Below are positions 1,579 through 42,367 of a stretch of DNA of 64,000 nt, piece by piece. Below the pieces are notes generated by a model, which saw only the letters and a list, made by a program, of their open reading frames with translations, ran no database searches and had not been told where the DNA came from. Location: positions 36,048,890 to 36,112,889 of the forward strand of contig NC_088868.1 of NCBI RefSeq assembly GCF_032884065.1. The letters are read 5' to 3'. The translations under genes were made by a program, and so were the position numbers. Position 1 is the stretch's first letter. Each line of letters starts with the position of its first letter. The stretch is from Artemia franciscana. Taxonomy: Eukaryota; Arthropoda; Branchiopoda; Anostraca; Artemiidae.

Positions 1579-3926
<2,348 letters not shown>

Positions 3927-3964: not shown

Positions 3965-5646
3965 CAGTGGTTCCCAACCAGTGGTACGCGTACCCCAGGG
4001 GGTACGCGAAACCCTCGCAGGGGGTACGCGAAGGTCCCAAAATTAATTTAGTCTACATCTTTAAAACTTGTTTCTGACTCAGTTCCAACATTTCCCTCAA
4101 AATCAGATAACATAACCCATTGTACGTAATTTCAGACTCATTTTCAAACTTTCGCTTTCAGTAACCCCTAATTTTTCTCCATAGCCGTAAGGTCTCGATT
4201 TAAACTCAGCGGGTTCAGTATCTTGTCATCTGTTGAAACACGAAGTTCGTGAATTGTGGTTGCAAACAAAGATGGATAGATTCCTGATCAGGAATAACAA
4301 GAAGCCGAATGATGGTACCCAAAACTCTGAACCTGCACCTAAGAAGAAGAAATATGACGAATCATCGGTCAAAGTGCGTCGATATTTGTCAGAATACCTA
4401 GGGCTCGGATTTAGTGCGACAAAGTCTGATCCAGTGAATGCACAGTGCGTTCTTTGTGGTCAAGTCTTGGCCAACAGTTCCATGAAACCTGCGCATATGA
4501 ACCGGCATCTCAGTACTGTGCACCCTTCTCATGTCGGTAAGCCATAGAGTTTTTCAAGCGTAAACAAGAAGCATTCGCTAGTAACTGTTTGGAAATTGCA
4601 AAAGTGGCATCAGTTTCTTCAAAGGCTCTCCGGGCTTCGTATGCTGTTTCATATTTAGTTGCGAAACAGAAAAAACCGCACACCATCGCCGAATGTCTGA
4701 TATTACCAGCACTAGTGAAAGTCAGTGAAATAATGTTTGACACGAAAACTGCTACTGCCCTTCAGTCTATACCTGTGTCGAACAATACCATTTCAAGAAG
4801 GATAGAAGACATTGCAAGCGATATTGTCATGCAGGTTATTGAGCAAATAAAGTTGACGAAGATGTTTGCTTTACAGCTTGACGAAAGCACGGATGTGTCA
4901 GGTGAAGCCCAGGTGATCGTCTTTGTTCGATATCAAGATTGTTCTGACATAAGAGAAAATATTCTGTTTTGTCAAACCTACAGTCAAGAACAACAGGAGA
5001 AGAACTATTCAAGGTGATTGACAAATTCTTCGCAGAAGGGGGCATCTTGTGGGACTGGTGTCTATCAGTTTGCAGTGATGGAGCTGCCGCCCTAACAGGG
5101 AAGAATAATGGGCTCATGGCCTGGATAAGGAAGAAAATCCAAAGGTGAAGTGATTGCACTGCATCATTCATAGGCAAGCTCTTGCATCGAAAAGGATGAA
5201 CGCACATCTGCACGAGACCCTCAACGAGGCTGTAAAAGTGATCAACTTCATCAAAGCCCGACCACTGAACTCAAGAATGTTCAAGTTGCTGTGCCAAGAG
5301 ATGGGTTCAGAACATCAACATTTACTTCTGCACACAGAAGTTCGCTGGTTGTCTCGTGGGAAGATTTTAAACAGACTTTTCGAGCTTCGACAAGAAGTTC
5401 ATATGTTTCTTCTGGAGCAAAAAATCTGCATTCAGTTCACTTTTTGAAAACCAGGACTGGGTCTGCAGGCTGGCCTATCTTGCGGATATTTTCGACAAAC
5501 TGAATGACTTGAATCTGTCAATGCAAGGTTTCCGGACGGACGAACTCTCCCTGAATTCGAAGATGTGTGCTTTCATCAAGAAATTGGAGTTCTGGCTTAA
5601 AAAGGTTCAAAGAACAGCGTTAGTGTCTTCCGACCCTTGACAAGTT
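3965..5646 (+). mobile_element. hAT (Buster/ZBED5-like) DNA transposon, copy 2, cut by assembly gap
   Basis: The left terminus CAGTGGTTCCCAACC begins at 3965, preceded by CCCTAGAG. The 1682 bp that remain are the mirror image of 3926-2245 in copy 1 with only scattered differences. The right part is lost in the run of Ns. The two copies form a palindrome of about 3.4 kb with a 38-bp centre. Confidence 0.85.
4272..5646 (+). pseudogene. hAT transposase (ZBED5-like), copy 2, partial and decayed
   Basis: This is the same transposase as in copy 1. From the ATG at 4272 the frame is open for about 90 residues: the Lys-rich stretch, then a complete BED finger with Cys-x2-Cys (CVLCG) and the HMNRH...H pair. 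It then meets a stop at the 'HVGKP' junction, where copy 1 reads on into 'IEFFKRKQ'. The catalytic-core region reopens at 4589-5017 (DTKTATALQ, LDESTDVSG) and shifts frame again near 4980 and 5140. The C-terminal dimerisation region is missing because of the N gap. Copies 1 and 2 carry partly different lesions, so each decayed at least slightly after they separated, or the assembly differs in quality between the arms. Confidence 0.8.
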
Positions 5647-12485: not shown

Positions 12486-14495
12486 ATTCCTTCTGTCATT
12501 GGTATTTTTCTCCAGTCTTGTTACTTGTTGAAATAACGTTTTGTATGGTTTAGGATCTAGTTTCATAAATATTTTCCATGGGTTGTTACTGGTTAGATGT
12601 AAATTCTCATGCTTGAATATTATTCCATGTTTTACGATGTCTTGTGTTTTGGAATCTATACACATGGTGAACTACATTTTTATCATCTTCATTCTCTTTC
12701 TAGAAAATGTTAATTTGGTGATTAGTTTAAATAAAATTTTCATTTCATTTATTTAAAGGTTTATGAATTTAATTTTGTCAGCTTAACCATTGATTCTGTG
12801 TTATATATTGGGAAAAAATAAAACTTTAAAGTATTATCCATTATCAATGATTCTTTTTTGAATTTAGCTGGGGTAAGTTTAGGCTGTGTTGGAGCTACAC
12901 TACCTTGAAAAAGTTAAAGCGGAAGATTAAATGTTAACAGCGTTAGTTTATAAAACTGATTTAAATAAATTCTTAAACATAAAGTAGGGAGGTGTGGTAC
13001 TACTCTGACCTCACTACTTGTTGACGATGAAAAATTTATTGTTACTGATATTAGCAAAAAGAAAATTTATCTTTCCTTTTTTATTTATTTTTTGATTTAA
13101 ATGGTGATTTTTAGACAATTTTTTTTTTGGTTAGAAAGAAAACATTTGGTCAATTCAATGTAAACTTTATTTTAATATGTAAAATTTCTGATCTAAAGTT
13201 TCTTTAGATTTTAAGTAAGTAAATAGTTTCTTCATTATTCTAAAATAGTAGGAAAACACGCTAGCATTTGGATGTCGCTGATAACTAAATCAAGATCACG
13301 CTATCATTTGAGTTAGATAATTAAATTAAACGACGAGTTGGTGGTAAGACTTCTATATTCAAAGAGGTACAAATTCGAAAAAAAGAGTCTGCTAGAAATC
13401 AGAAAGTGTGAAAATGCAACAGATAAATGAATATTTATGATCGATAAATATTTTTAATCGAGATAGTATTGCACTTATTTTTATTTCCCTTCCCCATTTA
13501 AAAACTAATAAAGGATACATATTGTAAACACGCATTTGCTATATAATGAGAACATTCTCTTGGCCCATTTCCAATTATTTTATGCAGAAAAAAAAGCTTT
13601 TAAAAAATGCTATTTATTTTTCAGTTATATTCTGCAGGGATTTGAATATGATTTCTTGAAGTAATTTATTCTTTTATAAGTCAATGAAGGCCTGAGTATG
13701 AACATTTAGAACAGAGAAAACTAACTATTAAGTTTTTTTTTAATTGGGAAGACCTTTCCTCCAAAGATATTTCTATTTCTAATCAACACTCAAAAGCACT
13801 AAAAGAAAAATTGCATTGAACAAGCAATCTTTTCGTCCGGTACATTGACGCATGCATTTGCCTTCAAAAGTGTTTAAATTTAAATAAATCTCCAAAAGCT
13901 CATATGGTTTCGACTTATAAAACTGATGGGACATTGGCTGACTATATTCTTTACAGCGAAAAATTAAATAAGTCAGAAAATCACACTTGTATTTGGCTGT
14001 CAATTTCTTTTTATCCTGATGGCTCCATGTTTTTAAATTTTATTCCAAATGAATATTAGGTAAAATTAATTTAGTTACTTCAAGATCTACAGGCTTGGAT
14101 ACACATTTGTTTTAATACTCCTCCTAATATTCCGTGAAGGTTTCACATGAATGATTTGTGGTTTTTGTTACGCAAGGTTCATTTAAATACATCTTTTTTT
14201 CTGTAATAATTATTGGCGATAATTTTTATATTAGTTTGACGACATCCTGCGAATTTTTCTTCATCCTTGTTCTGTACCAAATTATTTTATTTCTAAACCT
14301 AATTAAGTATTTTCTGATAAGGTAATGCTTTTCGTTAAGCAGAAGGAAAATGTGCAGCGCAGAAAGCACCGTAAACAAAAAAAATACAAAAAAAAATGTT
14401 TCTTTTATAGCAATGCATGGATTTTGCTTATGAATAAAGGGATTTTAGGTGCATTTAGGGATTTGTTTTAAGGGATAAGGAACTGAGATTTGTTT
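12486..14495. repeat. 2.06-kb tandem duplication, left copy
   Basis: It starts at ATTCCTTCTGTCATTGGTAT and ends at GGAACTGAGATTTGTTT. It matches 14550-16549 with scattered substitutions and small indels; the copy-to-copy distance is 2064 bp. It includes the N-terminal block of the envelope fossil at its left edge. The remaining 1.8 kb shows no coding frame I can support. Confidence 0.85.
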
Positions 14496-14549: not shown

Positions 14550-16549
14550 ATTCCTTCTGTCATTGATATTTTTCTCCAGTCTTGTTACTTGTTGAAATAA
14601 CGTTTCGTATGGTTTAGGATCTAGTTTCATAAATATTTTTCATGGGTTGTTACTGGTTAGATGTAAATTCTCATGCTTGAATATTATTCCATGTTTTACG
14701 ATGTCTTGTGTTTTGGAATCTATACACATGGTCAATTACATTTTTATCAACTTCATTCTCTTTCTAGAAAATGTTAATTTGGTGATTAGTTTAAATAAAA
14801 TTTTCATTTCATTTATTTAAAAGTTTATGAATTTAATTTTTTTCAGCTTAACCATTGATTCTGTGTTACATATTGGGAAAAAATAAAACTTTAAAGCACT
14901 ATCCATTATCAATGATTCTTTTTTCAATTTAGCTGGGGTGAGTTTAGGCTATGTCGGTGCTACACTACCTTGAAAAAGTTAAAGCGGAAGATTAAATGTT
15001 AACAGCGTTAGTTTATAAAACTGATTTAAATAAATTCTTAAACATAAGGTAGGGAGGTGTGGTACAACTTTGACCACACTACTTGTTGACAATAAAAAAT
15101 ATTGTCACTGATGTTAGCAAAAAGAAAATTTCTCTTTCCTTATTTATTTATTTTTTTTTATTTAAATGATGATTTTTAGACAATTTGTTTTTTTTTGGTT
15201 AGAAAGCTAACATTGGTCAATTCAATGTAAACTTTATTTTAACACGTAAAATTTCTGATCTAAAGTTTCTTTAGATTTTGAGTAAGTAGATAGTTTCTTC
15301 ATTATTCTAAAATAGTAGGAAAGCACGCTAGCATTTGGATGTCGCTGATAACTAAATCAAGATCACGCTATCATTTGAGTTGGATAAATAAATCAAACGA
15401 CGAGTTGGTGTTAAGACTTCTAAATTCAAAGAGGTACAAATTCTAAAAAAATGAGTCTGTTAGAAATCAGAAAGTGTGAAAATGCAACAGATAAATGAAT
15501 ATTTATAATCGATAAATATTTTTAATCGAGATAGTATTGCAGCTATTTATATTTTCACCCCATTTAAAAACTAATAAAGGATACGTATTGTAAACACGCA
15601 TTTGCTATATAATGAGAACATTCTCTTGGCCCATTTCCAATTATTTTATGCAGAAAAAAAAGCTTTTAAAAAATGCTATTTATTTTTCAGTTATATTCTG
15701 CAGGGATTTGAATATGATTTCTTGAAGTAATTTATTCTTTTATAAGTCAATAAAGGCCTGAGTATGAACATTTAGAACAGAGAAAACTAGCTATTTAGTT
15801 TTTTTTAATTGGGAAGACCTTTCCTCCAAAGATATTTCTGTTTCTAATCAACACTCAAAGGCACTAAAAGAAAATAATTACATTGAACAAGCAATCCTTT
15901 CGTACATTGACGCATGCATTTGCCATCAAAAGTGTTTAAATTTAAATAAATCTCCAAGAGCTCATATGGTTTCGACTTATCAAGCTGATGGGACATTGGT
16001 TGACTATATTCTTTACAGCGAAAAACCAGATAAGTCAGATAATCACACTAGTATTTGGCTATCAATTTTTTTTATCCTGATGGCTCCATGTTTTTAAATT
16101 TTATTCCAAATGAATATTAGGTAAAATTAATTTAGTTTTTTCAAGATCTACAGGCTTGGATACACATTTGTTTTAATACTCCTCCTAATATTCTTTGAAG
16201 GTTTCATATGAATAATTTGTGGTTTTTGTTACGCAATGTTCATTTAAATACATCTTTTTTTCCGTAATAATTATGGGCTATAACGATTATTTGTATATTA
16301 GTTTGACGAGATCCTGCGAATTTTTCTTCGTCCTTGTTCTGTACCAAATTATTTTGTTTCTAAACCTAATTAAGTATTTTCTTATAAGGTAATGCTTTTC
16401 GTTAAGCAGAAGGAAAATGTGCAGCGCAGAAAGCACCATAAACAAAAAAATATTACTTTTATAGCAATGCATGGATTTTGCTTATGAATAAAGGGATTTT
16501 AGGTGCATTTAGGGATTTGTCTTAAGGCATAAGGAACTGAGATTTGTTT
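14550..16549. repeat. 2.06-kb tandem duplication, right copy
   Basis: Second copy of 12486-14495, starting ATTCCTTCTGTCATTGATAT. It differs by scattered changes, so the duplication is not brand new. It carries the same N-terminal envelope block and no other recognisable coding sequence. Confidence 0.85.
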
Positions 16550-19140: not shown

Positions 19141-20025
19141 CTACTTATCCACGTAGGGAAAAGCAGCTATAGTCATATCATCCACTGATATGTTGCTTTC
19201 ACGAATAGATGGGCTGCCACAAACATTTGGAACTAGATTTGACACTGGATTGGGACTGGGATTAGCAGCTGATCTGTCACAAGTTATTTCACTGTATATA
19301 TTCACTACTATGCATCGGGGTTTCCCACTCAGATGATTAGCTTCTTTATTTGAGAGTATTGTCATAACTTCGTCAATTGCAACTGCTTTATCATCTGAAC
19401 AAAGGATTTCCCATTTACCGTCAACACCATGTGATTTTGTACCACGTGATAATATAAATACAAAACTACATGTATGATCCTTCCTATTTGCAAACTCCTT
19501 AATTGCACTGCGATTGGGACTGGGATTAGCAGCTGATCTGTCACAAGTTATTTCACTGCATATATTCACTACTATGCATCGGGGTTTCCCACTCAGATGA
19601 TTAGCTTCTTTATTTGAGAGTATTGTCATAACTTCGACAATTGCAACTGCTTTATCATCTGAACAAAGGATTTCCCATTTACCGTCGACACCATGTGATT
19701 TTGTACCATGTGATAATATAAATACAAAACTACAGGTATGATCCTTCCTATTTGCAAACTCCTTAATTGCACTGCGCATATCATCGGCGTTGAGATTGTC
19801 TTTCACCAGCACAGTAAATTTAAGATCTTCAAACAGGCTCCTCAAGTGTAAAACATCCATTTCCGAGCCCTCTCTTGTCGGAACATAAGAATTGGTAAAT
19901 ACTTGAACGTTTACTATAAGAACATGCCCTCTTTTTCTATTGAAATCGACTGAGTAGGATTCTTTTACGTTTTTGTTACTTAAATCATAGAAGTCTAAAG
20001 TTGAGGCTCTAAATGAAGAAGACAT
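19141..20025 (-). CDS. caspase-like protein, unit 1, internally duplicated p20
   Basis: This is an open frame of 294 residues resembling effector-type caspases, which are cytosolic Cys proteases of apoptosis. After a short N-terminal segment of about 32 residues, the p20 domain starts at 'RGHVLIVN'. The substrate-pocket Arg (TREGSE, R51), the catalytic His (ILSHG, H106) and the Cys position (NICSE, C156) all align, but the usual QACRG motif is replaced. Residues 84-171 are then repeated as 172-259. In the second copy the His is Arg (ILSRG) and the Cys is Tyr (NIYSE), so only the first copy could be catalytic. The p10 part is cut off after 'DDMT' by unrelated sequence. The ATG is supported by a stop codon a few codons upstream and by matching starts in units 3, 5 and 6. 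It is the last unit of a tandem minus-strand array. Activity seems unlikely. Confidence 0.75.
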   Translation of the reverse strand: MSSSFRASTLDFYDLSNKNVKESYSVDFNRKRGHVLIVNVQVFTNSYVPTREGSEMDVLHLRSLFEDLKFTVLVKDNLNADDMRSAIKEFANRKDHTCSFVFILSHGTKSHGVDGKWEILCSDDKAVAIVEVMTILSNKEANHLSGKPRCIVVNICSEITCDRSAANPSPNRSAIKEFANRKDHTCSFVFILSRGTKSHGVDGKWEILCSDDKAVAIDEVMTILSNKEANHLSGKPRCIVVNIYSEITCDRSAANPSPNPVSNLVPNVCGSPSIRESNISVDDMTIAAFPYVDK

Positions 20026-20215
20026 CTGGTGCTGGCCTATATGTTACATTTTTTTCATACAAAACTAATAACCTTTAATGCACTTATAAGCCAGGATACA
20101 AAAAAAATATATCGGTTCATCATACTTCGGATTTCTAGAACTTGTCTAAATTTTTCGCGCTTGAGTTTTTCGTCCGTCAGCTTGAACAGAGTAAAATTAT
20201 CTTTGTTGTAGCAAT

Positions 20216-20899
20216 TCAATTTGAAAACCTTACAAAGGCTCGAAATAAAACGGATCCAAGTTTTTTATCATGGGAAGATACGCATCCTGGTGCAATCGAA
20301 ATAACTAGAGTCATATCATCCACTGATCTGTTGCTTTCACGAATAGATGGTTTGCCACAAACATTTGGAACTGGATTTGACACTGGATTGGGTCTGGGAT
20401 TAGCAGCTGATCTGTCACAGGTTATTTCACTGCATATATTCACTACTATGCATCGGGGTTTCCCGCTCAGATGATTAGCTTCTTTATTTGAGAGCATTGT
20501 CATAACTTCGTCAATTGCAACTGCTTTATCATCTGAACAAAGGATTTCCCATTTACCGTCAACACCATATGATTTTGTACCATGTGATTATATAAATACA
20601 AAACTAGAGGTATGATCCTTCCTATTTGCAAACTCCTTAATTTCACTGCGCATATCATTGGCCTTGAGATTGTTTTTCACCACCACAGTAAATTTAAGAT
20701 CTTCAAACAGGTTCCTCAAGTGTAAAACATCTATTTCTGAGCCCTCTCTTGTCGGAACATAAGAGTTGGTAAATACTAGAACGTTTACTATAAGAACATG
20801 CCCTCTTTTTCTATTTAAATCGACTGAGTAGGATTCTTTTACGTTTTTGTTACTTAAATCATAGAAACCTATAGTTGAGGCTCTAATTGAAGAGCATAT
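20216..20899 (-). pseudogene. caspase-like unit 2, disrupted
   Basis: This copy lies in the same frame as units 5 and 6. Its start codon reads ATA instead of ATG, and a Leu codon just before the SHG motif has become a stop (TTA to TAA). The NICSE motif and the p10 beginning (APGCVSSHDKK) remain, and the frame ends at the shared 'RFSN' stop. It is 874 bp upstream of unit 1 and 879 bp downstream of unit 3 by start position. Confidence 0.8.
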
Positions 20900-21092
20900 C
20901 TGGTGCTGACCTATATGTTACATTTTTTTTTCATACAAAACTAATAACCTTTAATGCATTTATAAACCAGAATACAAAAAATATATCGGTTCATCCCCAT
21001 ACTTCGGATGTCTAGAACTTGTCTAAATTTTTCGCGCTTAAGTTGTTCGTCCGTCAGCTTAAACAGAGTAAAAACATCTTTGTTGTAGCAAT

Positions 21093-21778
21093 TCAATTTG
21101 AAAACCTTACAAAGGCTCGAAATAAAATGGATCCAAGTTTTTTATCATGGGAAGATGCGCATCCTGGTGCAATCAAAATAACTAGAGTCATATCATCCAC
21201 TGATATGTTGCTTTCACGAATAGATGGGCTGCCACAAACATTTGGAACTAGATTTGACACTGGATTGGGACTGGGATTAGCAGCTGATCTGTCACAAGTT
21301 ATTTCACTGCATATATTCACTACTATGCATCGGGGTTTCCCACTCAGATGATTAGCTTCTTTATTTGAGAGTATTGTCATAACTTCGACAATTGCAACTG
21401 CTTTATCATCTGAACAAAGGATTTCCCATTTACCGTCGACACCATGTGATTTTGTACCACGCGATAATATAAATTAAAAAAACTACAGGTATGATCCTTC
21501 CTATTTGCAAACTCCTTAATTGCACTGCGCATATCATCGGCGTTGAAATTGCCTTTCATCACCACAGTAAATTTAAGATCTTCAAACAGGTTCCTCAAGT
21601 GTAAAACATCTATTTCCGAGCCCTCTCTTGTCGGAACTTAAGAGTTGGTAAATACTTGAACGTTTACTATAAGAACATGCCCTCTTTTTCTATTTAAATC
21701 GACTGAGTAGGATTCTTTTACGTTTTTGTTACTTAAATCATAGAAGTCAATAGTTAAGGCCTTAATTGAAGAGCACAT
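21093..21778 (-). pseudogene. caspase-like unit 3, disrupted
   Basis: The ATG is kept. The Tyr codon of the 'NSYVP' block is a stop, and extra bases in an A/T-rich run at about 21475 shift the frame just before the SHG motif. The rest (NICSE, p10 start, RFSN end) follows the other units closely. It is not expected to make a functional product. Confidence 0.8.
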
Positions 21779-21971
21779 ATGGTGCTGGCCTATATGTTAC
21801 ATTTTTTTTTCATACAAAACTAATAACCTTTAATGCACTTATAAACCAGGATACAAAAAATATATCGGTTCATCCCCATACTTCGGATGTCTAGAACTTG
21901 TCTAAATTTTTCGCGCTTAAGTTGTTCGTTCGTCAGCTTAAACAGAGTAAAAACATCTCTGTTGTAGCAAT

Positions 21972-22655
21972 TCAATTTGAAAACCTTACCAAGGCTCGAA
22001 ATAAAATGTATCCAAGTTTTTTATCATGGGAAGATGCATATCCTGGTACAATCGAAATAACTAGAGTCATATCATCCACTGATCTGTTGCTCTCACGAAT
22101 AGATGGGCTGCCACAAACATTTGGAACTGGATTTGACACTGGATTGGGACTGGGATTAGCAGCTGATCTGTCAAAAGTTATTTCACTGCATATATTCACT
22201 ACTATGCATCGGGGTTTCCCGCTCAGATGATTAGCTTCTTTATTTGAGAGCATTGTCATAACTTCGTCAATTGCAACTGCTTTATCATCTGAACAAAGGA
22301 TTTCCCATTTACCGTCGACACCATGTGATTTTGTACCATATTTTAATATAAATACAAAACTACAGGTATGATCCTTCCTATTTGCAAACTCCTTAATTGC
22401 ACTGCGCATATCATCGGCGCTGAGATTGTCTTTCACCAGCACAGTAAATTTAAGATCTTCAAACAGGCTCCTCAAGTGTAAAACATCTATTTCCGAGCCC
22501 TCTCTTGTCGGAACATAAGAATTGGTAAATACTTGAACGTTTACTATAAGAACATGCCATCTTTTTCTATTTAAATCGACTAAGTAGGATTCTTTTACAT
22601 TTTTGTTACTTAAATCATAGAAGTCTATAGTTGAGGCTCTAAATGAAGAGGATAT
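21972..22655 (-). pseudogene. caspase-like unit 4, start and catalytic His lost
   Basis: The frame is open over the whole 228-codon length, but the start codon is ATA and the 'ILSHG' motif reads 'ILKYG', so the catalytic His is gone. The NICSE motif is kept. If translated at all it would have to start further in, after the first p20 strand. Identity to units 1, 5 and 6 is otherwise very high, which points to a recent array. Confidence 0.75.
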
Positions 22656-22848
22656 CTGGTGCTGGCCTATATCTTACATTTTTTTTCATACAAAACTAAT
22701 AACCTTTAATGCACTTATAAGCCAGGATACAAAAAAAAAATATATCGGTTCATCATACTTCGGATGTCTAAAACTAGTCTTAATTTTTCGCGCTTGAGTT
22801 TTTCGTCCGTCAGCTTGAACAGAGTAAAAACATCTTTGTTGTAGCAAT

Positions 22849-23532
22849 TCAATTTGAAAACCTTACAAAGACTCGAAATAAAACGGATCCAAGTTTTTTA
22901 TCATGGGAAGATGCGCATCCTAGTGCAATCGAAATAACTAGAGTCATATCATCCACTGATCTGTTGCTTTCATGAATAGATGGGTTGCCACAAACATTTG
23001 GAACTGGATTTGACACTGGATTGGGTCTGGGATTAGCAGCTGATCTGTCACAAGTTATTTCACTGCATATATTCACTACTATGCATCGGGGTTTCCCGCT
23101 CAGATGATTAGCTTCTTTATTTGAGAGCATTGTCAAAACTTCGTCAATTGCAACTGCTTTATCATCTGAACAAAGGATTTCCCATTTACCGTCGACACCA
23201 TATGATTTTGTACCATGTGATAATATAAATACAAAACTAAAGGTATGATCCTTCCTATTTGCAAACTCCTTAATTGCACTGCGCATATCATCGGCCTTGA
23301 GATTTTCTTTCACCACCACAGTAAATTTAAGATCTTCAAACAGGTTCCTCAAGTGTAAAACATCTATTTCTGAGCCCTGTCTTGTCGGAACATAAGAGTT
23401 GGTAAATACTAGAACGTTTACTATAAGAACATGCCCTCTTTTTCTATTTAAATCGACTGAGTAGGATTCTTTTACGTTTTTGTTACTTAAATCATAGAAG
23501 TATATAGTTGAGGCTCTAATTGAAGAGCACAT
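22849..23532 (-). CDS. caspase-like protein, unit 5
   Basis: This is an intact 227-residue frame. The N-terminal segment is short (about 32 residues), without a CARD or DED. p20 covers roughly residues 33-165 with R51 (PTRQGSE), H106 (ILSHG) and C156 in NICSE rather than QACRG. A Pro/Asn-rich linker (PNPVSNPVPN) follows. The p10 start (residues 194-227) reads ALGCASSHDKKLGS where caspases have PGYxSWRxxxxGS, so the pocket Arg of SWR is missing. The frame stops at 'RFSN', whereas p10-like wording continues in another frame for about 40 codons (KLTDEQLKREKF, then NRYIF). Neighbouring units lie 877 bp away on both sides with only some 40-60 bp between end and start, so no room for an ordinary promoter is obvious. 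It may be a pseudo-caspase or a decoy; expression is unknown. Confidence 0.75.
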   Translation of the reverse strand: MCSSIRASTIYFYDLSNKNVKESYSVDLNRKRGHVLIVNVLVFTNSYVPTRQGSEIDVLHLRNLFEDLKFTVVVKENLKADDMRSAIKEFANRKDHTFSFVFILSHGTKSYGVDGKWEILCSDDKAVAIDEVLTMLSNKEANHLSGKPRCIVVNICSEITCDRSAANPRPNPVSNPVPNVCGNPSIHESNRSVDDMTLVISIALGCASSHDKKLGSVLFRVFVRFSN

Positions 23533-23725
23533 CTGGTGCTGGCCTATATGTTACATTTTCTTTCATACAAAACTAATAACCTTTAATACACTTATAAACC
23601 AGGATACAAAAAAATATATCGGTTCATCCCCATACTTCGGATGTCTAGAACTTGTCTAAATTTTTCGCGCTTAAGTTGTTCGTCCGTTAGCTTAAACAGA
23701 GTAAAAATATCTTTGTTGTAGCAAT

Positions 23726-24409
23726 TCAATGTGAAAACCTTACAAAGGCTCGAAATAAAATGGATCCAAGTTTTTTATCATGGGAAGATGCGCATCCTGG
23801 TGCAATCGAAATAAATTTAGTCATATTATCCACTGATATGTTGCTTTCACGAATAGATGGGCTGCCATAAACATTTGGAACTGGATTTGACACTGGATTG
23901 GGACTGGGATTAGCAGCTGATCTGCCACAAGTTATTTCACTGCATATATTCACTACTATGCATCGGGGTTTCCCGCTCAGATGATTAGCTTCTTTATTTG
24001 AGAGCATTGTCATAACATCGTCAATTGCAACCGATTTATCATCTGAACAAAGGATTTCCCATTTACCGTCGACACCATGTGATTTTGTACCATGTGATAA
24101 TATAAATACAAAACTACAGGTATGATCCTTCCTATTTGCAAACTCCTTAATTGCACTGCGCATATAATCGGCGTTGAGATTGTCTTTCACCACCACAGTA
24201 AATTTAAGATCTTCAAACAGGTTCCTCAAGTTTAAAACATCTATTTCCGAGCCCTCTCTTGTCGGACCATAAGAGTTGATAAATACTTGAACGTTTACTT
24301 TAAGAACATGCCCTCTTTTTCTATTTAAATCGACTGAGTAGGGTTCTTTTACGTTTTTGTTACTTAAATCATAGAAGTCTATAGTTGAGACTCTAATTGA
24401 AGAGGACAT
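23726..24409 (-). CDS. caspase-like protein, unit 6
   Basis: Intact 227-residue frame with the same plan as unit 5: short prodomain, R51 (PTREGSE), H106 (ILSHG), C156 in NICSE, Pro/Asn-rich linker, and a p10 start with 'APGCASSHDKKLGS'. It ends at the shared stop after 'RFSH'. It is the first complete unit in the direction of transcription. Upstream lies only the tail of a seventh unit and then unrelated sequence, so any array promoter should be in or beyond 24608. No introns are seen, unlike most animal caspase genes, which suggests a retrocopy founder (inference). Confidence 0.75.
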   Translation of the reverse strand: MSSSIRVSTIDFYDLSNKNVKEPYSVDLNRKRGHVLKVNVQVFINSYGPTREGSEIDVLNLRNLFEDLKFTVVVKDNLNADYMRSAIKEFANRKDHTCSFVFILSHGTKSHGVDGKWEILCSDDKSVAIDDVMTMLSNKEANHLSGKPRCIVVNICSEITCGRSAANPSPNPVSNPVPNVYGSPSIRESNISVDNMTKFISIAPGCASSHDKKLGSILFRAFVRFSH

Positions 24410-24444
24410 CTGGTGTTGGCCTATATATTACATTTTTTTTCATA

Positions 24445-24607
24445 CAAAACTAATAACCTTTAATGCACTTATAAACCAGGATACAAAAAAATATATCGGT
24501 TCATCCCCATACTTCGGATGTCTAGAACTTGTCTGAATTTTTCGCGCTTAAGTTGTTCGTCCGTCAGCTTAAACAGAGTAAAAACATCTTTGTTGTAGCA
24601 ATTCAAT
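24445..24607 (-). pseudogene. caspase-like unit 7, C-terminal remnant
   Basis: The p10 tail that follows each unit (wording KLTDEQLKREKF and NRYIF in the shifted frame) is present here without its p20. The match ends at about 24607, which marks the upstream boundary of the array. Confidence 0.75.
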
Positions 24608-24989
24608 CTGACCCAATAGACTCTACTTGAGATTCAAAATTAGCTTCATTTGAATGAATTGGCTGTGTTTTGGCAAAAACTGTAAAAAAAATTGCCTGAA
24701 AATAAAAGCATTCTCAAAATCGCTATCAATCTTTTGGTATGTATCCTGATTTGTGAACGAAGATGTGGATGGAGCAAGGCTAGGCTTACTCCTATTTACA
24801 TGTTTCTAAAATATTTTAGGTGATACGGTGCTTGAGTGAATAATACGCGACTTAAGCTCTTCACGATTAGTCCTAAGAAGCCAAGTAACCTTGTTTCTCG
24901 CTAGTGCATACGCATGCCATTCACCTGGATCCTCTTGCAACTGAGCATCCGAATGTCCTTGCCTGACTACTATACTATGTTGTGACTCA
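24608..24989. other. upstream flank of the caspase-like array
   Basis: No gene or repeat recognised. If the array is transcribed from one promoter, this is where to look; I see no motif that proves one. Confidence 0.4.
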
Positions 24990-25600
24990 ATATACGACCA
25001 CCAAAGACTTTTTTTTCACGTATTGCTTGGAGTATGAGTCTTGGAAGTTTAGGTTTATTTCTACGATTATTACTTTTGCTGATTTTACGATTTTTTGCTT
25101 TTGCTGATGACAGTACTCTTGGCACAGTCTAATCTTCGTTCAAAGTTGATATCACTTTTTGAAAGAGTTATTCGGTGGTTTGATGTAAATTATCTTGCCT
25201 TAAATGTCGGGAAGTCGTGTTTTCTCATTTTTCTCCAAAGTCTCAAAGACTTGCCCTGACTTAAATAAAATACAATTATCAAGAGGTGCTCTAAGTAGAC
25301 CTAAGAATCGTGACATTCAATTCCTTGCCATCTTGCTTAACAAAAATCTTTCCTTCAAGCATCATATTGACCTCTTTAAAATAAAAGTTTCCAGGAGTCT
25401 TGGAATCCTTAGAAAGCTCAAACACATATTTCTAAGGTTGATTCTAAGAATCTTGTTCTGCAGCATAGTTCAGTCTAATGTTTCATATTGTTGTGTTGTT
25501 AGGATGTCAACATTTCCTTCGTCTCTGAAGCCACTTTCAAAACTTTATGATAAATCGATGACTCTTATTCAGGAAACTAACCAATCTTAACTTAAACTCT
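24990..25600 (+). pseudogene. LINE reverse transcriptase fragment
   Basis: The frame around 25080-25130 reads FADDSTLG, the catalytic motif of a LINE reverse transcriptase. It is followed by 'LNVGKSCF' and then, in a shifted frame at 25204-25590, by thumb-region wording ('DIQFLAILLNKNLSFKHHI', 'ILRKLKH'). CR1/Jockey-type by general look. It is a 5'- and 3'-truncated fragment with several frame changes and no endonuclease part. Confidence 0.65.
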
Positions 25601-27726: not shown

Positions 27727-27729
27727 ATT

Positions 27730-28865
27730 TAGCTATACCATTTGATTGCATTTATATCGACTTCTCGAAGGCATTTGACAAATTTTCAATACCCATCCTT
27801 CTTTAAAATTATGCAGCTTATAAATTGGGTAAAAAAAAAAATAATTCCATTAATTGCTGATTATCTAAGTGGAAGAACTCAGTAGATTGTCGTTGGTGAA
27901 GCTATGTCATCCTCAATTGATGTGTTAAGCAGAGTCTCTTAGGGTAGCTTCCTCGGTCTAATTTTATTTTGTTTATTTATCAAAGATCTGCCTTCCTCTG
28001 TTCAGCATTCTACTGTCAAGATGTTCACGGATGATGTAAAACTTCATCTACCAGTACGTGACAAAAACAATGTGCAGCTTTTACAGGAGGATCTTGACTC
28101 TCTCACTTATTGGTGCGAATCTAATTCTATGTTCATAAGCCTTTCTAAGTGTGCTGTTCTACACTATGCTTGTAAATTCCAGCCTGTGCATACTTACCAG
28201 CTGTCAGGCATACGAGTCCCTTCTAACGAAATAGTGCGTGACCTTAGCGTTTACTTTGATACCTAATTGAAATTTGATAAGCATGTTTTAGGAATTGTTA
28301 AGAATGCAAATTATTGTTTGTCGTCTATAAAGAGAAGCTTTAGTAAGTTTAACTTTCGTAATTTCTTATTACTATATAAATAAATGGTCCGCCTCTTCTT
28401 GAGCATAATACTTCGGATTGGTCTCCATTAAATCTACCGGATGAGCACAGGGTAGAAAAGGTTCAGAAAAGGGCCACTAGGTTGGTCCCATACCTTCAGT
28501 GCCTTTCCTATCCGCAGAGACTTTCCATGCTTCAACTCCCGTTGTTGATATATCGTAGACGCCGTAGTGACTTTATAAATGTGTTTTGTATACTTAAAGG
28601 ATTGGATGATATTGATCCAAATTTATTTTTCAAATTTAACCATTATCACTCTACTCTTCAGCATGATTGCAAATTATACCTCCAAAAACCACTGGAAAAA
28701 AATGGTCAACTATCTTTCGCCAGTAGAAATGCCGGACCAGGGTTTGCCTTTTGAGGTTGTCGAGGCAGAGAGGGTTCTGAATACGGTCTTAGTCAGAAGC
28801 TAAAAAACTCCTCAAACCATTGACAATTCTGACTATTTCAGCTGCAGAGACAGGTTAAAATTCCA
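27730..28865 (+). pseudogene. CR1/Jockey-type LINE reverse transcriptase fragment
   Basis: Reverse transcriptase wording in order: '[10 protein letters not shown]' (motif A, near 27750), then 'MFTDDVKLHLPV' (the xxDD catalytic motif, near 28021), then 'SLSKCAVLHYA'. The C-terminal CR1/Jockey signature 'ERL...LPLLIYRRRRSDFINVF...ILKGL' appears as 'QRLSMLQLPLLIYRRRRSDF' near 28510. Several stops and frame changes separate these blocks. It lacks the endonuclease, which may be represented by the oppositely oriented fragment that starts next to its 3' end. Confidence 0.75.
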
Positions 28866-33656: not shown

Positions 33657-35683
33657 TTTGATAAGTTTTTTGATTAGGGGAGGGGCCAGGAGTGAAAGCC
33701 AGGGGTTAGCTGTTGTGATTTTTGGACTAAAATTACGTTAATAAGTGTTTCATTTGGGGCAGGGGGATCTGACCATTGTGGGGAGGGTTAGGGGCTAGTT
33801 TTCATGATATGCCATCGATATTGTTTGGGGTAGGGAGGGGTATTGGGCCATGGAGGACCATGATTATTGCTTGTAAGTTGTTTTTTTGGAGGGGGGTTTG
33901 TGCCATACAGAGAAGGCCAGGGGTCAGCTCGCTATAGTTTTAGAATAAAACATCGTTCACAAGTTTTTTGATTAGGGTGGGTGGTTTGGTCTATTTGAAC
34001 TATGTACTATCATTAAAATCATCACAGAAGAACCTTATATGCTCACCGGACATCACATACAACACTTACTCTAGGGCTCTGGGGTGTGTGTTGACCCTGG
34101 TGTTTTTGTTATGCAATCTTTTGACTTAATTTAACAAAATGGCTATCTCAAAAATTCAACAGGATGCATTTGGGATAAAAAGGATGGTTAGCAGCCCTCC
34201 GATCCCTTTTGACTCTTATAAAGAAAACTAGAACTTTCCGTTTCTAATCGAATGAGCCTCCGAAGAATTTTTACAATCATTCCTTCCAAAAGAAACTCAT
34301 ATGCCCCCGATGCATAACTTACAACAATTGCCTACTTGCTCTGGAGGTTGTTGCTAACCCGGAGTTTTTCTGCTTTATCTTTAAACTATTGTGAAAAAAT
34401 GGCTATTCCAATATTTTGATTTGATGTGTTTGGGAAAAAGGGGCCTTGGGGAGACTAGTTATCCTCTGATCACTTTTGACTCTTAAAAATGGCACTAGAA
34501 ATTCCAATTTGCAATCGAATGGGCTAACTCTGGAGTTTATGCTACCATCCCTTCCATATTAACTTATATGCCTTGGAGGCATAGATTACTACACTTGCCC
34601 CTGGGCTCTGGGGTGGACTTTGTTATCCCTGGATTGTGAGATTATATGATTTCTGGTCAATTTCGAACAAAATAGCCGTATAAGAAATTCGATTGGACGC
34701 ATTTGGGGAAAATAAGGTTGGAATTGGTCAGTAGCACGAATTCATTGCCCTTAGTTAAGTGCTATGGTTTGAAGGGAAATAAACCATCAGGCTCTAATAC
34801 TAAGGTGACGTCTAGGACTACATCAAAACCGGCCAGTTTTCGTGGCTTTGGCTAATTTAACAGATAAAGACGTATTATGAAAAATTACTAAGATCGGGAA
34901 AAAGTATTACTTCTTACCTCCTGCGTGAATTGTCACGCCTTAGAAAAGAACTGCAATTTTTCGGCCACAGTCTGCGTACGTCATCTAACACTTCAATAAA
35001 AGTTGCTGAAACCCGAGTGATAATAAATGGGATTAGTGTATGGATAGAAGCGAAAAAGCCCTTTAAGTAAGACTTGACAACCAAGTAAGGCTTGGTTGCG
35101 TATTGGGGACATGTTCCGATCCCTTTAAACAATCTAGATATATAGCCTCTGTGGTTGCCCAGCCTAATGTATCAGTCGAAGGTGATGAGTAATTGGTGTG
35201 ATTCGTTCAGTTTTTAGTTATTCGTTTGATGTTTGTTAGTTTTTCTTTTCGTAAGATATGATATATAAATATTTCTCCTGGATTTTGATATTTAGATATG
35301 TTTTGTGTTTATTCATTTTGTATACACATTTTTCTCTTATCCTATTTTTCTTTGAAATATCCTCCATATTCTGTTAGACGTGACCTGTCAAGAAATGAAG
35401 AAGGAATTTTTAAATCCGTGTTTATTGAGATTAAAATCCAAGCTAAAACTTTGATTGTTGGTAATACATATATGTGTCCTAGTAGGTCTGTTCCTTTTTT
35501 TCTTCAGATTCCTGATGAGGTTTTGGAAATAATCCAGCTTCATTCATGTAAACTTGTCAATATGGGTGACTTCAACCTTAATTTATGTGACCGAAGGTCA
35601 TTCTCGTCCTTGCATTTTCTTTCAACAATGCTCGCTTGAGGAACATTACCTTCTGCATGCATTCCAACTTGCATAACTAACTT
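33657..35683 (-). repeat. large inverted repeat, right arm
   Basis: Reverse complement of the left arm: the 'GGGAGGGGCCAGGAGTG...' G-rich region at its inner end, the 'TGCGTACGTCATCTAACACT' block near 34970, and the endonuclease at its outer end. The extra 34180-34850 segment reads like further diverged modules of an R1-type repeat (each with 'CTCTGGGGTGG' and 'ATGCATTTGGG'-like phrases). Confidence 0.8.
35345..35638 (+). pseudogene. LINE endonuclease fragment, second copy
   Basis: Same APE-type endonuclease as at 29689-30052 but on the plus strand: 'KYPPYSVRRDLSRNEEGIF', then 'LIVGNTYMCPS', then 'MGDFNLNL'. The block is open here over about 98 codons. It is the outer end of the right inverted-repeat arm and stops just before the segmental duplication starts. 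Confidence 0.75.
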
Positions 35684-35814
35684 GCTTATACTTGCATAAC
35701 TAACTTGCATATACTTCTCTAGTAATGACAAAGAAACAATATTCAATCATCAGAATCTTGCTATAGGCCTATGTACTAATATGCACTTTGAACAAAACTA
35801 AACATTTACCCTAT

Positions 35815-36215
35815 CTTGGAAAGGGGTTGAGTTAGAGAAATGGAACTTTCAGGAATACTTTTGCAAATTAAAGTTTGTCATGGGAAGGTATTTGGAAGTT
35901 CTTAGTCTATCTCCACTGATTCTCCCTCTAGAGGACAATGACCTTTGACAATCTTTAAAAATCCTTGTGATATGAAAGTGAAACCTTGAAAAACAGATCT
36001 TCTGCTTAAATGAAGTACAAAAAGAAACTGTTTTCATGTTCATAACTTTGATCAATCCTCAATACATTTGGTAAATTTTGAAAAGACCCATTGAAATGGC
36101 TTAAAATCTACTTAAATAACAGGGAGTGAATTTTCAGAAATAAAACCAGAGAAAAAGAAACTGATAACTGAAAATTAAGGTAAAATATTGTTTTGTTAAA
36201 ATTTCAGTAGGTAGC
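35815..36215 (+). repeat. R4 foldback repeat, one arm
   Basis: Diverged R4 arm with 'GAACTTTCAGGAAT', 'TCATGGGAAGGTATTTGGAA' and 'AGATCTTCTGCTTAAATGAA'. The same phrases occur at 38671-39180 and, inverted, at 42060-42362. Confidence 0.65.
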
Positions 36216-38670
36216 CTATAGACATATCAAATTGGCAAATTGGTATCTGCTGAGCAGATTATAGATTGACCTAAAAATAAAGTGACTATACTGCTTAATG
36301 CCATTTTTTATCCTCTTACTGAATATGGTACTTGTGTATTATGTGCCACTCACTTCATAATATGCTGAATAATTGTACTTAACACATTTTACATACATAC
36401 TTTACCACCTGTTATGGGGGGGGGGGTTCTTTTAAAGTTAAGTTGTTTGTAACATGGGAGCCTTATAGTTAAGGAGCATCGACTGAGAGGGTTCTATTGA
36501 CAAGTCTCTATAACTACGGAGACAAAATCATTATCATGACATTCAGGTCTCCCGAGTTGGGCAGATTCCCTTGGGAACGATCCAGTAGACAATAGGAAGT
36601 GTACCTGGTACCTTGACTCAAAGACAAACACAATTATTGACAATAATTTTATTTTCTTACTTCATATACAACTTCAGGTAAAATGACTTCAATGAGAGAT
36701 AGCAGTATAATGCACATCAAAGACTGAGTACAGAATAAAGACTGAATCAGGACTGAATTAATACTGAATAATACTCCTAGCTTTTGGTCTACCTTATATA
36801 TCCAGAATCAACCCAGATTTCTAAATTAAGCACTGGGTAGACTGACCTCAGAAATGTTGCAATACAACTCTTCTTTTAATTATACAACATATGGCATAAC
36901 CTCCTTGCAAAGATTTATTACAACGAGGGCTTTCACCTCCAGTTTGTTGACCAGACCAGAAATAGAAATCTGGTTTCTAATTGGCTTTTATCAAAAGTTT
37001 GAATCCAATTTTGATAGTCTTAAAAGTATCGGTTTTTGCTCGCTGTAAGACTTGTACCAAAGGTAAAAAGTATCATTTTTTTGCTTGCTGTATAACTTGT
37101 GCCAAAAAGCACAAATCCTATGAGATGATGAATTTACACTTTTAAAATCTTTAGATGTATAAGAGATCTTACTTTAAAAGCTTCTAAAGTGAACGAATGA
37201 GAGATTTGGTTTTGAGTTCTGTAAGGGGGAGGGGGGGGGGGCTGCTGGTCCATATATCAGATTTATTTGGATTTTTTTTTACCAACTAAAAACAGTAGGA
37301 AAAGCATCAGGTATAAGTGACTTAAGAGACTCGACAACATTTAGAAAAAGCAACATGCAACCTGATCTAAATAAGGATGGTATTGTAGAGAAGAGAATCA
37401 AAGAGAAGCCTACAGGTATATCCCAAATACAGTAAGGGCATATTACAAAGAACAAGAACAGGTTCATTAAATTCCATTGAAGTGGTAAAGAAACAAGAAA
37501 ATTGCAAAAATTGAGATTATAAGATTAACAAGAAACTATGAAAATTGCAAGTAGAGTACTAGCCTCCTTCCAACAGGACAAATTATGGGATTCACACACC
37601 AAAGCTCTGACTATTTTCAATCATCCCTTTAGGAGCCAAAAAAATTAAATACATTTTTTCACATATGTCAAATATGACAGTTGACTCAGGAGTTCAGGGT
37701 AAGAGATTCAATACTCTATGGTGCCACCAATGGAAGGACATTTGCTGTCATAAGCATTGTTAATCCTAGCACACACCCACACTCAAATATAACATTCGGT
37801 AAAATCATAAACATCTCAAACAGCAAAAATAAAAGACTTTTTTCATTTTTGATAAATATTATTTAAAAAAGGACACTACAAGGCAAATATCAGGTTCATC
37901 AGCATGCTAAATTTGATGTGACAATGATAAAATTTTGTTAAATCTTTTCTGGGATCAAATGTGTTAGCTATAGATAACACAGACATTGCAATATCTATTT
38001 GTTTATCCATCTGTTTGATTGAGACTATGACCCTAGGTCAAAAAGGCTAAGATTTTTAAAGTTTTTTTCATTGACCTTTAGGTCAAATAAGGAAAGAGGA
38101 GGGGGTTCTATACACAAAAAGTAGAATTTTTTGTTGATTTGCTGAAGTTAGTGAAAGGAGTATCAAATTTAAATGAAAGATGGAATAAATGTACATACAA
38201 AAATTTCACCAAACTGGATCCTACTAGAATTTATCAGATTTGTTTAATATAATTTCAAGAATAGGTAAGGTGCTGTCTCTGATAGTTGACCAAGTTTAAA
38301 AAAATCCTTTAGATCAGAAAGCTTAAAAATAAATATTTATGATACACATACACAATATGATACACAATATAGTTAAAGATATGTAGTTAAAGGAAAATAT
38401 GTTATATTTTTGATCCCTGGGAAATTAGTTTAAAGCCCTATCGTGATTAGAAGAGGTAGCTGACATCAGGTTACTCAAACATAATTCTAAAGGAGCTACA
38501 CCATGGTTAAAATACTAATACTGCACTGATACTTAGTCAATTATATGGCTATTTCAGCTTATTTGCATTGTGATGATAACAATGGGTTTGCAACTTTAAT
38601 GTGATGATTGCTTGAAGACAGGATTATCACCCTATTTAGGGTAGATCAATTTTATTTGAAAGAAAATAAC
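36216..38670. other. non-coding part of duplication copy A
   Basis: No gene I can support. It has a G-run near 36417 and a purine-rich run near 37227. Short open frames here are matched in copy B only because the whole region is duplicated, not because of coding constraint. Confidence 0.5.
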
Positions 38671-39546
38671 TTGGTAAAATTCTAGCTGATTGACTTCTTG
38701 CTATCTCAGAAAGGAGTTATGTTAAGATAATGAAACTTTCAGGGAAGCATCTACAGGCTAAAGTGTGTCCTGGGAAGGTATTTTGAAGTACCTACCTCCA
38801 CTCCTTCTCCCTCTAGAGAGCCCTGACTTTTGATGACCTTCAAAATGTGTGTTATAAAAGTGAAATCTTGCAAAATAAATCTTCTGCTTGAATGAAGTAC
38901 AACAAAATTGGGTAAAATTATAGTTGATTGACTTCTTGCTATCTTGGAAATGGGTTAGGTTAGGAAAATGAAACTTTCAGGGATGGGTCTACAGGCTAAA
39001 GTATGTCCCGGGAAGGTATTTTGAAGTACCTACCTCTACTGCTTCTCCCTCTTGAGGGCCCTGACCTTTGATGATTTTCAAAAATATTTGTGTTATAAAA
39101 GTGAAATCTTGCAAAATAGATCTTCTGCTTGAATGAAGTACAACAAAATTATTTTCAGCTTCACAGCTTTGCTCAATCCAAATTTATAAGGTTTTAAATA
39201 TATGCAAATGCATTTCTTAAATTTGGAAAAAAAAACATTGATATGGGTCAGAATTCTAATCAAATAACAGGAACTGCATTTTCAGCAATAAAGGCAGAGA
39301 AAAAGCAACTGGTAACTAAAAATTAAGGTAAAATGTTGTTTTGTCTAAATTTCAATAGGTATAGAGATGTAATGTAGGCAAATGTCAGGGCTCTCTAGAG
39401 AGAGAAAGAGTAGAGGTGGTTACTTTAAAATACCTTCCGTTGATATAATTTAGCCTATAGACCCATCCCTGAAAGTTTCATTTTCCTAACCTAACCCCTT
39501 TCTGAGATAGCTAGAAGCCACACAACTAAAATTTTACCCAACATTT
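38671..39546. repeat. R4 foldback repeat, complete-looking copy
   Basis: The left end GGTAAAATTCTAGCTGATTG and its inverted counterpart ending at about 39546 (AACTAAAATTTTACCC) bracket an 875-bp unit with inverted arms of about 170 bp. The left arm is tandemly repeated at about 38912. Each arm carries 'GAAACTTTCAGGG' and 'GGGAAGGTATTTTGAAGTAC'-type phrases. No coding capacity. Confidence 0.7.
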
Positions 39547-39639
39547 TACCTTTACCTACTGTGGCAAAACAAGAACTGGAAAAACAAGTATCAGGTGGCA
39601 GAATACATTGAAAATATATAATTTGTGCTATATATTTGT

Positions 39640-40230
39640 AAATTAGGCATGTTGGGGGTAAATTTGTTGTTGTTCATATTTTGACTTAAAAATAAAGTGA
39701 ATATACCACTTGATGCCTTTTTGTATGTTCTTTACGAATATAATAATTGCTTATATTGCTAATTCAAATTTAAGTACTTATTCACCTTACCTAACATAAC
39801 CAATTTTGGCAGTGAAAAACATACATTATTTTGCCAAAAATGACCAAAAGCACACATTATTTTGCCAAAAATGACCAAAAATACATACTTTAATTGAAAA
39901 TTTGCATCAAGGAAGAAGAAAACAGCATGATATTGTAAAGTTTATTAATCCAAATTAATTGTGGAAAATCAGTTCTTATGGATTATATAACGTTTTAAAA
40001 ATGGAGTAATAATGAGACCAATGTTTGAGACCAATGTTTTAATCTTTTTTTTATAACCAGAAACTAGAAATATTTTGGTCATTTTCAAGAGCTCAAAAAG
40101 TGCTTAAATTCTAACTTGCAATTAAAGCACTTATTATATTTGTAAAGAACATAAAAGAGGCATCAAGGGGTATGCTCACTTTATTTGTAAGTCAAAAATA
40201 TAAACAACAACAAATTTACCAATTATTAGT
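39640..40230. repeat. FB2 foldback repeat in copy A
   Basis: The left part (AAAGTGAATATACCACTTGA, then 'CTTTACGAATATAATAATTG') reappears inverted at about 40120-40190. Inside, 'ACATTATTTTGCCAAAAATG' is tandemly repeated twice. Homologous to 6303-7430. Confidence 0.75.
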
Positions 40231-41025
40231 CTAGAGCTGCATGATTTCCCCCAGGGTATATAGGCTAAGTGGAAGGTCACTTGTACCTGATCCTGTCCCT
40301 ACTATTTACTTGGTTGAAAAAAATCCAAAGAAAGTTCCCATTGAAAAGGAAAGAGCTCAAAAGTGAGATTGAATTTGTCAGAGCTTGGAGGTTTGCCCCT
40401 TCAGTCTGTTTAAAGAAAACAGATTCATAATTGAAGCTTTGTTCATTTCAATCTTAAGGGTGACCTACATTTATAACACTTCATTAGATGGTTGTAAAGG
40501 GATACTTTTTTTTATTTGTCTTGTTTGTTTTCTACATGATTTTTTTAATCTTTAAATTTATATACATTTCTTACAAATTAATTAGTCATAACACAGTTTC
40601 ATTTGCAAGTTTTGACCTATTTTGTAACCCCTGGTCTCAAAGTTGCTCATATATTTATTGAAGCTAGGAAATATAGAACTACTGTTTGTTTAAAGGAAAA
40701 TGGATGGACACAAGTAGGTTTTATGCACTAAAGTCCTAGGGCCATGGCCATTAAAACAAAACAATGAAGATTAAGTTTAAAATACTTGATATTAGATAAA
40801 TATAACAGTGTCACAAAGAAAAGCCATTCACAAAATTTCACTTTGGTGCTCAGTTGCCAACCTGAGCAATTGCCCTAAATTTTTAAACGTTGCAATACAC
40901 TCACCAGCCATCTCTTATGACCTACACTCTTGTCTATACATCAACAATTCATTGAAAAGGAAGGGCCACCTTACTGGCATTTCTTCCTTTGTACTTATAT
41001 TTAATGGTTTAAAAGAAAGCTTCTA
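40231..41025. other. non-coding part of copy A
   Basis: A 74-codon open frame at 40808-41032 is identical in plan to one in copy B but starts with GTG and runs into the SINE-like element; not called as a gene. Confidence 0.5.
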
Positions 41026-41305
41026 TGGCTAAGTCAGAGGCCCAGTAAAGGACCAGGTGGTCCTTTAGCCAGGAAGTGTAATAGGAAGCTAGGGGCCAGT
41101 CATCCTGTGCTTTTGCATGCCCTTCCTACTTACTGACCCCAGATTTCTCTAGGTAACCTTATAAGGTTGGGCCAATTCCGGCTGAACTTACAGAGTCAGT
41201 TCACTGACCTTTATCCCAAACCAAATAAACTGGTAATGCCAGGAAATAAACCTGTGCCCTTTGGATAAAGGATTCTCAACCTAGAGTGCCAGTCACTTCG
41301 GAAGG
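41026..41305 (-). repeat. tRNA-derived SINE-like element, copy A
   Basis: Read on the minus strand, the head has a tRNA-like arrangement: 'TGGCACTCTAGG', an anticodon-arm-like 'CCTTTATCCAAAGG', and a B-box-like 'CAGGTTTATTTCCTGG' (copy B has GGTTTAATTCC, closer to the consensus). A body with a 'GGACCACCTGGTCC' palindrome follows. No poly(A) tail is obvious. Confidence 0.45.
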
Positions 41306-42059: not shown

Positions 42060-42362
42060 AAAAGATTATTTCTAAATTTGGAAAAAACCGGGTGTTATGG
42101 CTTAAAGTTCTGCTCAATCAACAGGAATTGTCTTTTCAGAACTAGAGCCAGAGTTAAAGAAACTGATAACCAAAAATTAAGGTACCCAAAATTTCAAGAC
42201 CCCTTAGAGGAAAAAGAATTGGATGTAGGTACTTCAAAATACCTTCCTGGGACATACTTTAGCCTCTAGACACATCCCTGACAGTTTCATTTTCCTAACC
42301 TAACCTCTTTCAAAGATAGCCAAAAGTAGCTAAAGTAAAATTTTACCCGTACTTTACCCCAT
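42060..42362 (-). repeat. R4 foldback repeat arm (inverted)
   Basis: Inverted R4 arm with 'CAAAATACCTTCCTGGGACA', 'CATTTTCCTAACCTAACC' and a terminal 'AAAATTTTACCC'. It truncates the LINE ORF1 that follows. Confidence 0.65.
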
Positions 42363-42367
42363 ACATT

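Follow-up and report, generated by a model that had tools for sequence, protein, structure and literature searches.

Here we analyze a 64,000-nucleotide window of the brine shrimp Artemia franciscana genome (C6:36048890–36112889) that contains, on its minus strand, a block of repeated caspase-like units. These units probably form a tandemly amplified processed-pseudogene array. In our judgement, a damaged caspase b-like retrocopy that was amplified in tandem explains the observations except for an excess of replacements among the copies whose reading frame is open; to account for that excess, one would have to invoke chance, a bias left out of the model, or a function as decoys. An initial annotation of the window recognized the array and missed that the repeated cassette appears, from its sequence, to be a damaged retrocopy.

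The six unit starts that the initial annotation placed on one strand (24409, 23532, 22655, 21778, 20899, and 20025) and their spacings (877, 877, 877, 879, and 874 bp) are exact. A self-BLAST of the whole window resolves the block into direct repeats with 94–96% identity across stretches of 0.7–4.2 kb, far above chance, which bears out the proposed tandem amplification, and the five full units (u1–u5) are highly alike, as had been stated, with pairwise identities of 94.6–97.0%. The description as a six-unit array holds for the starts, but the sixth unit (u6) departs from the pattern: it is truncated where the small subunit begins and carries an in-frame internal duplication, and its open 294-amino acid (aa) frame (19141–20025, minus strand) ends in flank sequence. 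The C-terminal remnant of a seventh unit, reported at the upstream edge, is likewise present, though it encodes the C-terminal end of the small subunit in a frame that differs from that of the 227-aa open reading frames (ORFs). Two other versions of the locus lie on contigs C5186 (740,606 bp) and C793 (1,683,476 bp), and in both of them the edge of the seventh-unit remnant recurs and duplications are found at unit coordinates identical to those of the 264-bp duplication of u6. Counting matches of at least 100 bp with u1 as the query, we find 6 unit starts in the window, 11 on C5186, and 17 on C793, each beside matching flanks, so that the variable copy number anticipated by the initial annotation is seen among three contigs of one assembly. 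Scoring covered 27 units; another 7 starts, of 34 in all, were left aside as incomplete or as containing the 264-bp duplication.

Profile searches uphold the proposed caspase origin. The ORFs of u1 and u2 match Peptidase_C14 (PF00656) with 82.5 bits (E 4.6e-23) and 84.8 bits (E 9.6e-24), respectively, against a cut-off of 21.4, and the u6 ORF and a partial u3 ORF match it too (four ORFs tested); matches to caspase-4/9 in the PDB have E values of about 1e-12, and a search of NCBIfam gave no match. The 227-aa ORF comprises the caspase large subunit and the beginning of the small subunit. Among the five full window units, the dyad Cys and His are both retained in u1, u2, and u5, and those of u1 and u2 align with the dyad residues of solved caspases; the catalytic His is altered in u3 and u4 (Table 1), and the Cys is altered in the second copy within u6. 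For comparison we use P0008, the A. franciscana protein "caspase b-like isoform X2," which was found by a protein search using the read-through translations described below. The QACxG-type active-site motif, which is NACRG in P0008, is lost in all 26 scored units that cover it (NICSE, NIYSE, or NICSK), and the arginine of the P1-Asp pocket, present in P0008 (SFRD) and in a caspase exon on C4, is His in 25/25 covering units. In all likelihood, no functional protease is produced from the array. An AlphaFold2 model built from an eight-sequence alignment had a predicted local distance difference test score (pLDDT) of 34 and was not used.

The units also share a frameshift in the small subunit (p10). 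The ORF ends at residue 227 and the remainder of p10 lies in another frame; head and tail are in different frames in all 24 testable units (3 of the 27 are not testable), and the tail is present in 26 of 27 units across the three contigs, including the equivalent of the u1 tail in all five full window units. When the two frames of u1 are joined by an X into a read-through, the Peptidase_C14 score rises from 82.5 to 94.7 bits, whereas six shuffled tails give 77.2–78.8 bits. The u2 read-through scores 96.8 bits and is identical to P0008 at 131 of 284 positions (46%), in an alignment reaching the last residue of P0008, and in tblastn searches the P0008 C-terminus is matched by the tail of every full window unit, five in all, as well as by that of the upstream remnant, with E values from 7e-16 to 2e-9. 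The evidence for the frameshift is this combination of read-throughs with shuffled controls and alignment to P0008, not searches with the tails alone: a profile of the p10 tails found no PDB caspase, nor did a single tail, and among four tails compared with Pfam, one had a weak caspase match (E 0.22), one matched an unrelated family (E 0.13), and two had no match. Given that the frameshift is common to all testable units, it is older than the amplification.

The units appear to be descendants of a spliced caspase copy, because four P0008 introns that fall within the unit span are absent from the units. The exons of P0008 are scattered across about 52 kb of C8; residues 111 and 170 are each followed by a donor of the gtaagt type, and further exons encode residues 171–250 and 250–~302. 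The fetched C8 exons match P0008 at 88–100% save for two rows, one at 62% that overruns an exon edge and one at 64% that is a second row on L036 (residues 20–44). The last caspase b-like exon is known from paralogues on C2 and C4, and the fourth intron position is based on the C8 exon end together with paralogue exons (L011, C2, C4). These introns correspond to approximately unit nucleotides 57, 243, 470, and 610, and the units run uninterrupted through all four positions, as expected from the intronless state claimed in the initial annotation. DNA matches between units and exons span unit positions 60–243 and 391–470, with others ending short of the junctions, and the match to the C4 exon (L011, 93%) begins at unit position 611, directly after TTTTTTTTCAG. 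Alignment of the units to P0008 starts only at about residue 86–99, the 5' part being missing. In the spacer, an ATTAAA lies 18 nt before a short A-run that may be internal to the 3' untranslated region (UTR), and this arrangement is suggestive only. Two fragments on C113 (L009 and L010, 72%) are without clear splice signals and were not used in the intron argument.

The wider caspase b-like family has features of its own. Paralogue exons lie at C2:51.4–51.9 Mb, C4:37.4 Mb, and C8:9.7 Mb. On C4, L011 2796–6943 is a near-perfect 4.15-kb palindrome (98.9%), each arm of which contains a caspase last exon that is 93% like the array unit and is preceded by splice-acceptor-like sequence. Residues 1–37 of P0008 resemble half of a double-stranded RNA (dsRNA)-binding motif: the cut-out piece matches Pfam dsrm with E 0.037 and 15 bits (cut-off 23) and an editase in the PDB with E 7e-4, while a search with full-length P0008 at E 0.1 does not show the motif.

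The upstream edge of the array sits inside an interspersed repeat (40 of 811 candidates scored), and the continuation of this repeat past the edge reads like the reverse transcriptase of a long interspersed nuclear element (LINE), as judged by eye with no profile search made. Two pieces of one interspersed element lie beside the array in opposite orientations (Table 1). We hypothesize that the array began with a spliced caspase mRNA, of which a DNA copy was made, probably by the reverse transcriptase of a LINE, and integrated at this site, and that the inserted copy would have lost its function through mutation before multiplying. The damaged copy would then have spread as an 877-bp unit through tandem duplication, either by unequal crossing-over or by replication slippage; the unequal crossover named in the initial annotation fits, but the data cannot separate it from other mechanisms of tandem duplication. 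Since then the units would have drifted, been deleted, inverted, and re-duplicated without constraint at the protein level, and the array would persist as neutral DNA of variable copy number.

Decay of the individual units is extensive. Beyond the shared frameshift, further breakage is found in 18 of the 27 scored units, and clean ORFs (ATG, without stop or frameshift) remain in 2/5 units on C6, which are u1 and u2, in 5/9 on C5186, and in 2/13 on C793. Two of these nine clean units lack a catalytic residue (Cys in a05, His in a08). Some broken units are hit only near the end, as in a07 (codon 216) and b03 (codon 220), and a04d is broken by an in-frame deletion with two gaps totalling 204 bp. 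Two array copies carry the public protein names "caspase A-like" and "caspase-12-like," which may mislead given that the cassette has neither the active-site motif nor an intact small subunit.

Comparison of the three versions gives the array a history. The window flanks are 98.0–99.2% identical to those of C5186 on both sides; with C793 the identity is 96.6–98.0% downstream and, on the other side, 97.9% beyond a rearranged stretch that includes an inverted piece at 93.6%. From these matching flanks we infer that the three contigs are haplotypes rather than duplicated loci. The array on C793 contains an inverted block (740694–744561), whereas the window version is without inversion. A 2.2-kb segment (98.2% identical) between the array and the downstream flank is common to C5186 and C793 and absent from the window, which therefore looks shortened. 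Unit lineages are common to the versions (u1/a01/b01 and u3/a03/b03) and units are ~5% apart, so that the first amplification predates the split of the versions, while stops that are found only on C793 and are common to 3–4 of its units point to later rounds of amplification. The description of the array as recent is therefore right for these later rounds but not for the first. The first DNA search of the whole genome skipped very common words and gave C6, C4, and C113 only; the arrays on C5186 and C793 were recovered by protein search. In a scan of viral_contigs, none of 20 pattern matches encodes a relative.

We found no sign of purifying selection in the coding frame, either in the window set or in a larger set of 26 of the 27 scored units (one short piece was dropped). 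In the window set, 15 of 86 coding changes are synonymous compared with 19.9 expected (P 0.12), which we first read as neutral; an omega of 0.5 is rejected (P 4e-5), and the rate of change is not lower in the coding part (12.6%) than in the spacer (10.4%; P 0.45). In the larger set, variants found only in broken copies look neutral (17 synonymous of 94 vs. 21.0 expected, P 0.15–0.16), and the tail in its own frame has no deficit of synonymous changes (11 vs. 13.0 expected, P 0.26).

Several observations weigh against a neutral processed-pseudogene array. The last exon of P0008 was not found within the C8 pieces fetched, no clear poly(A) tail was shown for the retrocopy, and no target-site duplication was shown, the array edges having been printed with no further search made. 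The first unit is open in all three versions of the locus (u1, a01, and b01), and two NCBI protein records, P0002 and P0003, are exactly units a01 and a09 of C5186. In the larger set, only 27 of 182 unique coding variants are synonymous compared with 38.3 expected (P 0.011, trinucleotide-matched draws), and per-site change on the tree is 0.348 in the coding part and 0.269 in the spacer. The omega-like ratio is 1.4–1.6 over the window set and the larger set. The main source of the deficit is variants found only in open copies, with 46 replacement and 4 synonymous changes where 10.4–10.5 synonymous would be expected (P 0.003–0.005, post hoc); the private variants of the u1 clade comprise 24 replacements and 1 synonymous change (P 0.034). 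A tree-based count gives 36 synonymous of 237 (P 0.002), but may count gene conversion several times, and we therefore prefer the unique-variant count. We compared all six frames as a control, although these overlap in their sites and so are not independent of one another. The synonymous deficit is strongest in the coding frame, weaker in reverse frame 2 (P 0.08 for all variants, 0.016 for open-only), and absent from the other forward frames; forward frame 2 shows an excess, as does reverse frame 1. The tests are several, post hoc, and not adjusted for multiplicity, and we take the excess of replacements in open copies as suggestive.

This excess would be explained if u1, u2, and related open units encoded catalytically dead 227-aa proteins that bind and modulate intact caspase b-like enzymes and diversify in sequence, for example in conflict with pathogens, with the broken copies as by-products. 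We regard such decoy pseudocaspases as unlikely. They would fit the concentration of the synonymous deficit in the coding frame and in open-copy-only variants, the private replacements of the u1 clade, and the persistence of an open u1 in each version, and there are precedents: inactive caspase homologues arising from gene duplication are reported in Diptera (PMC3141678), and cFLIP-L and caspase-12 have been described as pseudocaspases (PMC11121540). However, besides the post hoc nature of the tests, open and broken variants differ only with Fisher P 0.087, and most of the small subunit, through which caspases dimerize (PMC11121540), is cut off. Moreover, replacements in all copies lie along the whole protein, with G33 and the catalytic-position H106 among them, and their presence at core and catalytic positions argues against a finely tuned function. 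A more specific proposal strikes us as more doubtful still: a retroposed, catalytically dead piece of a caspase of the dsRNA-binding type would have given rise to a family of decoys that varies in copy number, with 6–17 unit starts per chromosome, and diversifies quickly, its open members changing in protein faster than neutrality allows. If this were true, the set of pseudocaspases that acts on an antiviral enzyme of cell death would vary from one brine shrimp to another. Between a neutral retro-array and a young pseudocaspase family, the locus is a good test bed, in which the broken copies are built-in neutral controls for the open ones.

That the open units are active proteases is scarcely credible: u1 and u2 keep a dyad that aligns with that of solved caspases, but they have lost the P1-Asp pocket arginine, the remainder of the active-site motif, and the greater part of the small subunit. 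It is also very improbable that the array acts as RNA, with transcription, notably through the inverted block of C793, yielding dsRNA and then small RNAs against caspase b-like genes or LINEs. The inverted block suits this proposal, but the window version has no counterpart, and DNA matches between units and exons are short (42–205 bp) and 67–76% identical in the tested caspase b-like genes, reaching 93% only for the C4 exon, so that targeting would be poor. Misassembly as the source of the repeat or of its copy-number differences is equally hard to credit. DNA from 14 females was pooled for the long-read assembly and scaffolding was guided by the A. sinica genome (PMC11492255), and three versions of the array locus remained although Purge Haplotigs had been run. 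Duplicated loci are conceivable in place of haplotypes. With long reads from 14 females, several haplotypes in one assembly are unsurprising, and against an artefact the array adjoins matching flanks on each of the three contigs and has lesions peculiar to one version, such as the C793-only stops at codons 51, 54, and 220. In addition, three further pieces (P0004, P0006, and P0007), apparently from one 1,259-bp ENA contig, derive from more than one unit.

Processed pseudogenes lose introns and accumulate lesions, and tandem arrays can be unequal in copy number. The present array differs in that, in our reading, its repeat unit is itself a processed caspase pseudogene, and within a single sample the versions of this locus differ widely in copy number. 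Its nearest relative here, P0008, has the same p20–p10 order and the same ...YPGL C-terminus as the u2 read-through, and differs in its intact motifs, uninterrupted p10, N-terminal extension, and introns, none of which is found in the units. The partial, sub-threshold N-terminal motif of P0008 resembles the dsRNA-binding motifs of the oyster DSRM-prodomain caspases Cg3C-like A/B, whose two genes are close together (PMC7836458); the oyster proteins have two DSRM motifs, the brine shrimp units have no prodomain, and the available part of that paper mentions no retrocopy array. Caspase-12 carries a premature stop in most people and is mutated in its SHG box, and the mouse form is altered at the P1-Asp pocket arginine (PMC11121540); it is not a tandem retrocopy array. 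A caspase-like decoy of Aedes (cited in PMC3141678) is also an inactive arthropod caspase paralogue; the title of the paper that describes it says that it enhances a paralogous caspase. A literature search by titles found no paper on this array, and the word caspase is absent from the available text of two A. franciscana genome papers.

Table 1. Units of the caspase-like array and adjoining repeats, in window coordinates
Feature	Position	Strand	Remarks
Unit 1 (u1), 877 bp	23533..24409	-	Open 227-aa frame 23729-24409; SHG kept; NICSE; SSHD
Unit 2 (u2)	22656..23532	-	Open 227-aa frame
Unit 3 (u3)	21779..22655	-	ATA start; catalytic-His motif SHG to KYG
Unit 4 (u4)	20900..21778	-	Codon 47 is a stop; 2-bp insertion; SHG to SRG
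Unit 5 (u5)	20026..20899	-	ATA start; codon 104 is a stop
Unit 6 (u6)	19167..20025	-	Truncated at small-subunit start (~19167)
In-frame 264-bp tandem duplication within u6	19239..19776	-	Copies 19239-19512 and 19503-19776
Seventh-unit remnant, 202 bp	24410..24611	-	Unit positions 676-877; small-subunit tail and 3' UTR; 96% to u1
Remainder of u1 small subunit (p10), out of frame with the 227-aa ORF and extending into the "spacer"	23595..23768	-	54.8% to P0008 residues 312-371; tblastn E 7e-16 (window)
Upstream flank, interspersed repeat	24612..25600	-	Five C1 copies extend past the array start
Same interspersed repeat, continued inverted	27727..28782	+	Identity to C1 copies: 95% for three, 84% for a fourth; a fifth aligns over 185 bp only

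Elsewhere in the window, possible transposase fragments lie at 2621–3340 (minus strand) and 4191–4544 (plus strand), with a DUF4371 match (E 2e-4) and a zinc-finger match (E 0.004), both below curated cut-offs; the remaining eight window ORFs scanned alongside them gave no match. A tandem 2-kb duplication (12486–14495 and 14550–16549) has 94% identity, and a direct segmental duplication (35656–47973 and 49336–62730) consists of pieces that are 96–98% identical and ~13.7–14.8 kb apart.

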